A stretch of 55,834 bases of DNA from Methylococcaceae bacterium (GTDB lineage: Bacteria > Pseudomonadota > Gammaproteobacteria > Methylococcales > Methylomonadaceae). The stretch lies in the NCBI GenBank assembly GCA_007280895.1, contig QYQN01000108.1, positions 1 to 55,834 on the forward strand. The letters are read 5' to 3'. This document shows positions 2,137 through 20,563 of the stretch, piece after piece. The stretch's first letter is position 1; the number at the start of each line of letters is the position of its first letter. The notes below the pieces were generated by a model that worked only from the letters and a program-made list of their open reading frames with translations, was not told where the DNA came from and did not search any database. The translations under genes and the position numbers were made by a program.

Positions 2137-2483
2137 TAAATTCTCCTTGAGGGTTGCATGGGGTGGATAGCTTAAACGGAATTAAGTGTGGAAGGCTTAT
2201 TTTAGTCATTATTGCTTTAGAATTTCACCGTATTTTTAGTGCCACGCGTGGTTGATAGGCGTTTTATTGCTGCACGACGCTTAGTCACTGATGTCATGCC
2301 ATTCTTCTGTCATGTAAAAGATCAGCATCGGTGGGGCACATGACGGCAAATCGAGCTTACTGCGTTGTCAGTAGGTAAGAAACATTTTTTCTGTAGCATG
2401 GCATTTTTTTAGTAAAGTAGTATAAGTAATATCCTGACATTCAGATAAAATGTCAGCTTAATTAGACCCTATCGGGTTATCTT

Positions 2484-2607
2484 GGCTATCAATTAAGACG
2501 GGACGGTTAAGCCGATCATGGTTCGACAAGGCTTTTAGTCCTGAGCTTCGCCTAAGCCTCACCACAAATGGTTTAAGCTCAGGCTATCCTGTCTTAAGTG
2601 GGTAGCC
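2484..2607. mobile_element. Putative MITE-like element (124 bp) with ~16-bp imperfect terminal inverted repeats and a near-perfect 8-bp direct repeat
   Basis: Left end GGCTATCAATTAAGAC, right end GTCTTAAGTGGGTAGCC; flanks GTTATCTT (2476-2483) and GTTCTCTT (2608-2615); internal CTGAGCTT...AAGCTCAG stem. Confidence 0.55.
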
Positions 2608-2649
2608 GTTCTCTTTAAATGTAATTGATTTTATTAAATAGTGACTCTT

Positions 2650-16402: not shown

Positions 16403-18322
16403 ATGGCTAAAATAATTGGTATAGATTTAGGAACAACAAACTCATGTGTTGCAGTATTGGAAAATGGCGTAGCGCGTGTTATTGAAAACAGTGAAGGTGC
16501 GCGTACTACCCCTTCAATTATTGCCTTCACCAGTGATGATGAGGTGTTAGTTGGGCAATCAGCAAAACGTCAAGCAGTCACTAATCCAACCAATACACTG
16601 TTTGCTATCAAACGATTAATTGGTCGTCGCTTTAAAGATGATGCAGTGCAAAAAGATATTAAAATGGTGCCTTATCATATTGTCGAAGCTGAAAACGGTG
16701 ACGCATGGGTTGAAGTCCACAATAAAAAAATGGCCGCACCTGAGATTTCTGCTCGCGTTTTAATGAAATTAAAAAAAGATGCAGAAGCGTATTTAGGGGA
16801 AACCGTTACTGAAGCAGTTATTACCGTGCCTGCTTATTTTAATGATTCACAGCGTCAAGCCACTAAAGATGCTGGGCGTATTGCCGGCTTAGAAGTTAAA
16901 CGTATCATCAATGAGCCAACAGCATCGGCGCTTGCGTTTGGTATGGATAAACCTAAAGGCGATACTAAAATCGCAGTCTATGATTTAGGTGGCGGTACCT
17001 TTGATATTTCAATCATTGAAATAGCTGAAATAGATGGTGAACATCAGTTTGAAGTGTTATCAACTAATGGTGATACATTCCTAGGCGGCGAAGATTTTGA
17101 TTCACGTATTATTGAATTTCTTGCAAGTGAATTTAAAAAAGAAAGTAGCGTAGACCTTCATAAAGATCCTTTAGCTTTACAACGCTTAAAAGAAGCGGCT
17201 GAAAAAGCTAAAATCGAATTATCATCAAGTCAACAAACAGATGTTAACTTACCTTATATTACCGCTGACGCTTCAGGACCAAAACATTTAAACGTTAAAT
17301 TGACCCGTTCAAAATTAGAAGCCTTAGTTGAAGAGTTAATTAATCGCACTAAAGGCCCTTGTGAAATGGCGTTGAAAGACGCGGGCTTATCAGCAAGCGA
17401 AATTAATGATGTTATTTTAGTGGGTGGGCAAACAAGAATGCCTAAAGTGCAAGAAATGGTTAAAAGCATTTTTGGCCAAGAACCACGCAAAGATGTCAAC
17501 CCTGATGAAGCCGTAGCATTAGGTGCAGCCATTCAAGCGGGTGTATTAGGTGGTGAAGTAAAAGATGTGTTGTTATTGGATGTTATTCCCTTGTCATTGG
17601 GTATTGAAACAATGGGCGGTGTGATGACAAAACTAATTGAAAAAAATACCACCATTCCTACCAATGCTTCACAAGTTTTTTCTACAGCTGATGATAATCA
17701 AACGGCGGTTACTGTGCATGTGTTACAAGGTGAGCGCGAAAAAGCGTCTGCCAATAAATCTTTGGGACGTTTTGATTTAGCCGACATTCCACCTGCACCA
17801 CGTGGTATTCCACAAGTTGAAGTAGCCTTTGATATCGATGCAAATGGCATTTTAAATGTTTCAGCAAAAGATAAAGCAACCGGTAAAAAACAATCAATTA
17901 TTATCAAAGCCTCAAGTGGATTATCAGACGATGAAGTGCAACGTATGATTAAAGACGCCGAAGCCCATGCTGATGAAGATCGTAAATTAACTGAGTTAGT
18001 TCACGCAAGAAACCATGCTGAAGGCATGATTCATGCGACTGAAAAATCAGTAAAAGAATTTGCTGAGCAAATGGATTCAGAAGAAAGAACAGCCATTGAA
18101 AATGCAATTAATGCCTTAAAAGACGTTCTTAAAACTGAAGATAAAGAGGCAATCGATGCTAAAACGAACGAGTTGACTGAATTATCAGGTAAACTAGCCG
18201 AACGTATGTATGCACAAAAAGACAATGCTGAGGCTGATAATGCCGAGCATGCTTCTGCATCACATGCTAGCGATGATGGCGTTGTCGATGCTGAATTTGA
18301 AGAAGTTAAAGAAGACAAATAA
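16403..18322 (+). CDS. dnaK: Molecular chaperone DnaK
   Basis: [22 protein letters not shown]..., [29 protein letters not shown]; ends ...[13 protein letters not shown]. Confidence 0.99.
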
Positions 18323-18356
18323 CTTTCAATAGTTGAGTCAACGTTTTATTTCCAGA

Positions 18357-18382
18357 ATGGGAGCGGGATTAGCCGCTCCCAT
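18357..18382 (+). terminator. Terminator-like hairpin after dnaK
   Basis: ATGGGAGCGG-GATTAG-CCGCTCCCAT, 10-bp perfect stem, weak T tract. Confidence 0.6.
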
Positions 18383-18419
18383 TACTACTCATAATGTTAA
18401 AAAGATAGTCCCTAATTTT

Positions 18420-18490
18420 GGCTACCAACTTAAAGCAGGACACGATTAAAGGTTAAGCCTTGTTCTGTGTCTCGTGTTAAGTTGGTAGCC
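18420..18490. mobile_element. Putative MITE-like element, 71 bp, perfect 14-bp terminal inverted repeats, flanked by direct repeat CTAATTTT/CCTAATTTT
   Basis: GGCTACCAACTTAA (18420-18433)...TTAAGTTGGTAGCC (18477-18490); CTAATTTT at 18412-18419 and 18491-18498 (9-bp CCTAATTTT if the boundary shifts by one). Confidence 0.7.
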
Positions 18491-18623
18491 CTAATTTTCA
18501 AATGGGGTAACACGTTATGCACGCATGCTTTACTTATTATCAGTACATTGTTTGCATTGATTTCCCTTTGAATCTTTTATAACTCAACTCACCTCCCTAT
18601 CTAACAAGAGTTAATACTAAGTC

Positions 18624-20563
<1,940 letters not shown>

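Follow-up and report, generated by a model that had tools for sequence, protein, structure and literature searches.

A 71-bp MITE between dnaK and dnaJ of a methane-oxidising bacterium and its likely parent, a DUF6399 insertion sequence

The dnaK-dnaJ gap and its empty counterpart

The window (the whole 55,834-nucleotide stretch of DNA that was analysed) comes from a methane-oxidising bacterium and carries a 301-bp gap between the stop of dnaK at 18322 and the start of dnaJ at 18624. Direct reading of the sequence places a 71-bp element in this gap, flanked on both sides by the octamer CTAATTTT and ending in perfect 14-bp terminal inverted repeats, GGCTACCAACTTAA...TTAAGTTGGTAGCC, beyond which the inverted repeat extends inward imperfectly (Table 1). 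An earlier sequence-only reading had described the same element, inverted repeats and position, and had assigned it no coding capacity; each of these points was borne out, and no ORF of at least 80 aa overlaps 18420-18490. The element is also well within the few hundred bp typical of a MITE. The core GGTTAAGCC of its internal segment is conserved in the short class of copies described below, including those of the related methanotroph G027. A separate hairpin, GGGAGCGGGATTAGCCGCTCCC, lies right after dnaK at 18358-18381; an altered form is also found in the nearest relative, G004, and this hairpin probably belongs to the original dnaK-dnaJ gap.

Table 1. Positions of the element, its flanks and a second family copy in the window.
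Feature	Position	Strand	Basis
Left target-site duplication, 8 bp, CTAATTTT	18412..18419	.	Sequence; G004 empty site has a single CTAGTTTT
71-bp MITE, short class	18420..18490	+	Sequence, host copies, absence from G004
Left terminal inverted repeat GGCTACCAACTTAA	18420..18433	+	Sequence; identical to left end of G027 1.70-kb IS
Internal segment aggttaagcctt	18450..18461	+	
Right terminal inverted repeat TTAAGTTGGTAGCC	18477..18490	-	Sequence
Right target-site duplication, 8 bp, CTAATTTT	18491..18498	.	Sequence, genome-wide flank comparison
Second family copy, 124 bp, more diverged left end	2484..2607	.	Absent from G004:C79
Second copy, left 8-bp duplication GTTATCTT	2476..2483	.	Flank comparison
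Second copy, right 8-bp duplication GTTCTCTT, 7/8 match	2608..2615	.	Flank comparison

G004 matches this region of the window at 91% identity except for the 71-bp element. The aligned site in G004 reads ATAGTCCCTAGTTTTCAAATGGG, with one octamer, compared to CTAATTTT, 71 bp and CTAATTTT in the window. The second family copy is likewise missing from G004:C79, where the flanking matches abut its borders exactly and overlap by 8 bp. Since these are two independent and precise empty sites, insertion in the lineage of the window is the natural reading at both; it is much less likely that G004 lost each of the two copies precisely. The sequence-only reading had proposed a search for an empty site with a single octamer in a close relative, and had named constant presence between dnaK and dnaJ in all relatives, with no other genomic copies, as a finding that would count against an insertion; G004 supplies the empty site, and the reading stands. 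Because the element is absent from G004, the dnaK-dnaJ operon does not need it.

Copies in the host genome and the length of the target duplication

Host copies were gathered by search and from fetched regions. In the host genome, an 88-bp query had 34 matches; sites resembling the 14-bp end, with up to 2 mismatches allowed, numbered 106, compared to 18 for a reversed-pattern control. The family is accordingly multicopy and dispersed, with similar copies in many other intergenic gaps, and no reading frame of at least 100 codons runs across any of the 34 distinct host copies. A search of host genome and relatives for further copies, which the earlier reading had recommended, thus returned dozens of related copies in the host.

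We used the flanks of 41 candidate end pairs in the host genome, a set that includes overlapping alternatives for one element and from which 34 were kept as distinct copies, to measure the length of the target-site duplication. Flank identity within the same element was 0.70 at length 8 compared to 0.31 between elements, and was at background for lengths 5-7 and 9-12. Perfect octamers flanked 16 of the 41 pairs and matches of at least 7/8 flanked 24, compared to 6 of 1640 cross-paired flanks; counted over the 34 distinct copies, the figures are likewise 16 and 24. The sequence of the octamer varies from copy to copy, such that the duplication is constant in length and specific to each copy. 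The sequence-only reading had allowed 8 or 9 bp; the 8-bp value held and the 9-bp value did not, length 9 being at background genome-wide and the extra base being the element's own last base (18490 C). It had also held that copies elsewhere lacking flanking duplications would speak against a MITE, and the fraction of pairs at 7/8 or better leaves that reading standing. A recognisable duplication is absent at some copies (e.g. L009, L015, L046 and L047), which counts against a MITE moved by the transposase discussed below; the absence may be due to decay or recombination.

Two sizes dominate, one of 62-71 bp and one of about 141-151 bp (L010-L013, L017, L019, L021, L025, L028 and others). Copies of the long class contain the short core and, between GGTTAAGCC or GGCTTAACC repeats, a ~76-bp insert reading CCGTTCG..CTGAGC..TGTCGAA..CGAACGG. 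This nested insert has the appearance of a REP-type palindrome, and its core words were absent from the papers in our literature search. Two further forms were observed. A 359-bp copy at L031:289-647 has perfect GTATTTTT duplications and contains another nested inverted-repeat insert (CATAGGTATCTACACAAG...TTGTGTAGATACTTATG), and a lone 24-bp palindrome at L042:354-377, GGCCACCCACTTAAGTGGGTAGCC, in which two ends overlap, is perhaps the smallest remnant.

Insertion sequences with the same ends and their DUF6399 protein

Stretches downstream of isolated ends in G027 were fetched in order to find full-length elements. Thirteen elements that have these ends and measure 1697-1712 bp were extracted. 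Identity to the reference copy was 99.1% or more in every case, and the flanking octamers were perfect in 12 and matched at 7/8 in one. The ends of this insertion sequence (IS) are GGCTACCAACTTAAGACGGGACA and GGCTACCAATTTAAGACGGGACA, and the left end of the window copy is GGCTACCAACTTAAAGCAGGACA. The IS strongly resembles the window element over about 22 bp, with no resemblance further in; the consensus of the family end over this length, GGCTACCMACTTAAGRCGGGACA, is somewhat diverged in the 18420-18490 copy. The sole ORF of more than 100 residues in the 1.7-kb element is a DUF6399 frame. A stop-free frame of 540 residues is kept in L223 and L230, the other extracted G027 copies being broken by frameshifts or stops, and a protein search of G027 gave 23 matches, several with the full 540-residue frame.

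Elements of this kind were also found outside G027. G009, which belongs to the same genus as the window, carries an apparently intact 1.67-kb IS with the same ends, a 530-residue open frame and perfect AAAAAAGA duplications, and in G059, from another family of the order, a 1705-bp contig starts and finishes with the family ends. The window element therefore has its ends in common with an autonomous element in three genomes (1.70 kb in G027, 1.67 kb in G009 and 1705 bp in G059). Partial DUF6399 matches were found in G003, G011 and G014. Short elements sharing IS ends are present in G027 as well, where 113-bp MITEs with perfect duplications begin with 28 bases that equal the right end of the IS with one difference. 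A 630-bp, internally deleted DUF6399 element with both ends kept was observed on a plasmid of Methylomonas sp. AM2-LC (CP157007.1; L288:1930-2559); no 8-bp duplication was seen at this copy, which is plausibly an intermediate between IS and MITE.

A protein search of the host assembly, a draft of 160 contigs with 99.9% estimated completeness, gave no DUF6399 match. As draft assemblies easily lose multicopy IS, absence of the transposase gene from the host is probable rather than proven. Since the assembly holds no transposase match, the host copies look stranded and now immobile.

We examined the 540-residue protein against family models. It matched PF19936 (DUF6399) with E = 6.5e-63 and 211.6 bits, compared to a cut-off of 35.4; no other Pfam model scored over its cut-off, and the Pfam transposase models gave no match at E <= 1. 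Within NCBIfam, NF048019 (IS256_Zn_var) matched the middle of the protein with 27.5 bits compared to a cut-off of 150. The 8-bp duplications and this weak match resemble the IS256 family, but the protein lies far below the curated cut-off and has no Pfam transposase match, which does not place it in that family. Six proteins were compared, taken from Methylococcales, two cyanobacteria and Thiodictyon, the first sharing 26-70% identity with the others. D145, D200 and E455 were invariant among them and fall within conserved stretches around DETF, SD.A.AL and SS..EGRNG. We infer that these residues are a candidate DDE triad and that the PF19936 protein of the IS is most likely a DDE transposase. 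No meaningful match to the IS protein was found among solved structures and no relative of it among viral contigs. Annotated public records name such proteins solely "DUF6399 domain-containing protein", and the name DUF6399 was not found in our literature search.

The ends of more distant DUF6399 elements were also compared. The Thiodictyon copy has GGCCTTGATCAT ends, which differ from the family ends but have GGC tips, and it is flanked by perfect 8-bp GTCCAACC duplications; the 8-bp rule therefore extends to at least one distant member. The ends of the Acaryochloris copies can be aligned with those of the family (GGCTACCAGCATAAAGCGGGAAAA and GGGTATCAATTTAAGCCGGGAAAA), and a clean 8-bp duplication was not seen at them. 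Ends were looked for at the Crinalium copy and not found.

Among related methanotrophs, the 14-bp ends at up to 1 mismatch occur at some 115-230 sites in each of G014, G027 and G028. At G028:C33:17605-18775 the ends recur at ~193-bp spacing (17605, 17797, 17990, 18183, 18376, 18569 and 18762), which suggests a tandem array containing the MITE end. A search with a 23-base end in 274 genomes of the class, a set with two other members of the order, matched the host only. By this search the family is not widespread across the class, and the host-only match is no sign of uniqueness to the species.

Origin of the element and its significance

Taken together, the empty sites in G004, the 8-bp duplications, the multicopy dispersal and the IS with shared ends strongly support the earlier reading of 18420-18490 as a MITE. 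That reading had left the transposase family unnamed, and the likely parent is now a DUF6399 element that has these ends and likewise makes 8-bp duplications. We consider it very likely that the element is a MITE having its ends in common with the 1.67-1.71-kb DUF6399 IS, whose transposase presumably moved it in trans. According to this model, the transposase would have bound the ends of the 71-bp element, moved it in trans and left an 8-bp duplication of the target, and the present host copies, with no transposase gene in the assembly, would be immobile. Two findings weigh against a DUF6399 parent: the host assembly lacks a DUF6399 match, so that the helper is deduced from relatives, and the window element resembles the IS at its ends alone, with an interior that a simple deletion within the G027 IS would not produce.

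Some other transposase recognising similar ends, e.g. of the IS256, IS1595 or IS4 type, might instead have moved the MITE, with DUF6399 as a passenger. Duplications of 8 bp are produced by several DDE families, and the sub-threshold NCBIfam match to an IS256 variant points the same way. However, inspection of IS1595 and DDE_Tnp_1 loci in the same genomes showed no matching end pair, the 1.7-kb element has no second ORF of more than 100 residues, and the distant Thiodictyon element, despite its different ends, combines a DUF6399 protein with GGC tips and a perfect 8-bp duplication; we regard this origin as very unlikely. Transposases of the PF01609 and PF12762 families were found in the host and relatives, and the relatives' loci examined had no matching end pairs. 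If a RAYT (Y1 HUH) transposase, and not a DDE element, had spread these copies, they would be extragenic palindromes of the REP/BIME type. Such repeats are likewise short, palindromic, intergenic and multicopy, and the long class does contain the REP-like CCGTTCG...CGAACGG insert. Nevertheless, a REP/RAYT element should lack a target duplication, and 8-bp duplications are present both here and at the 1.7-kb IS with the same ends; to our knowledge, HUH transposition of REP sequences generates no such duplications. These rule out a REP/RAYT origin of the outer element, the least credible of the alternatives; for the nested insert of the long class, absent from the 18420 copy, such an origin may still hold.

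The sequence-only reading had also suggested that the element could fold as an RNA hairpin, and the computed fold is indeed stable, at -37.9 kcal/mol compared to -14.8 +/- 2.8 for shuffled sequences (z = -8.2). The element probably lies in the dnaK-dnaJ transcript and may affect expression of these genes or processing of their transcript. Unequal dnaK and dnaJ expression is common in heat-shock operons. So stable a fold at an intergenic site in a heat-shock operon would suit a conserved regulatory RNA or attenuator selected at this position, yet the exact site is empty in G004, with one octamer left, which refutes such an RNA as the origin of the hairpin. Similar copies in many other gaps argue against it as well, as do the lack of any Rfam family at cut-off for the 71-bp element and of a terminator-like tail, a consensus scan of 18300-18640 having found no promoter- or terminator-like site. 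We judge a regulatory origin highly improbable.

Bacterial MITEs are a well-known kind of element. In general such elements, for example MITEAba12 of Acinetobacter (PMC6382973), are comparably short and non-coding, with terminal inverted repeats and a target duplication, and are also multicopy with ends in common with a full insertion sequence; they differ from the window element in end sequence, host and parent, which here is the DUF6399 element. The Methylococcales PF19936 IS has the same ends and 8-bp duplications as the window MITE. The IS of this kind in Methylococcales, Acaryochloris, Crinalium and Thiodictyon encode the putative transposase, and the MITE has only the terminal ~22 bp in common with them. 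Our literature search returned no paper with 12-base end sequences in a relevant context, and none joining Methylococcales, insertion sequence and MITE. By the literature and collections searched, the MITE family and its likely parent are new, and so is the interpretation of DUF6399 as a transposase.

With roughly even odds, we propose more broadly that the DDE transposases of an IS family, or of a distinct branch of one, are DUF6399 proteins, and that the annotation examined here does not recognise them as such. This family would be present in Methylococcales, Chromatiaceae and Cyanobacteria, with GG-tipped ends and 8-bp duplications, and would have given rise to at least one large family of MITEs, which in some hosts persists after its parent is gone. 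For the locus itself, an unexplained palindrome in a heat-shock operon becomes an insertion with a known empty site. The findings further suggest that a domain listed without a known function acts as a transposase, and a frequent intergenic repeat of related methanotroph genomes can now be labelled.
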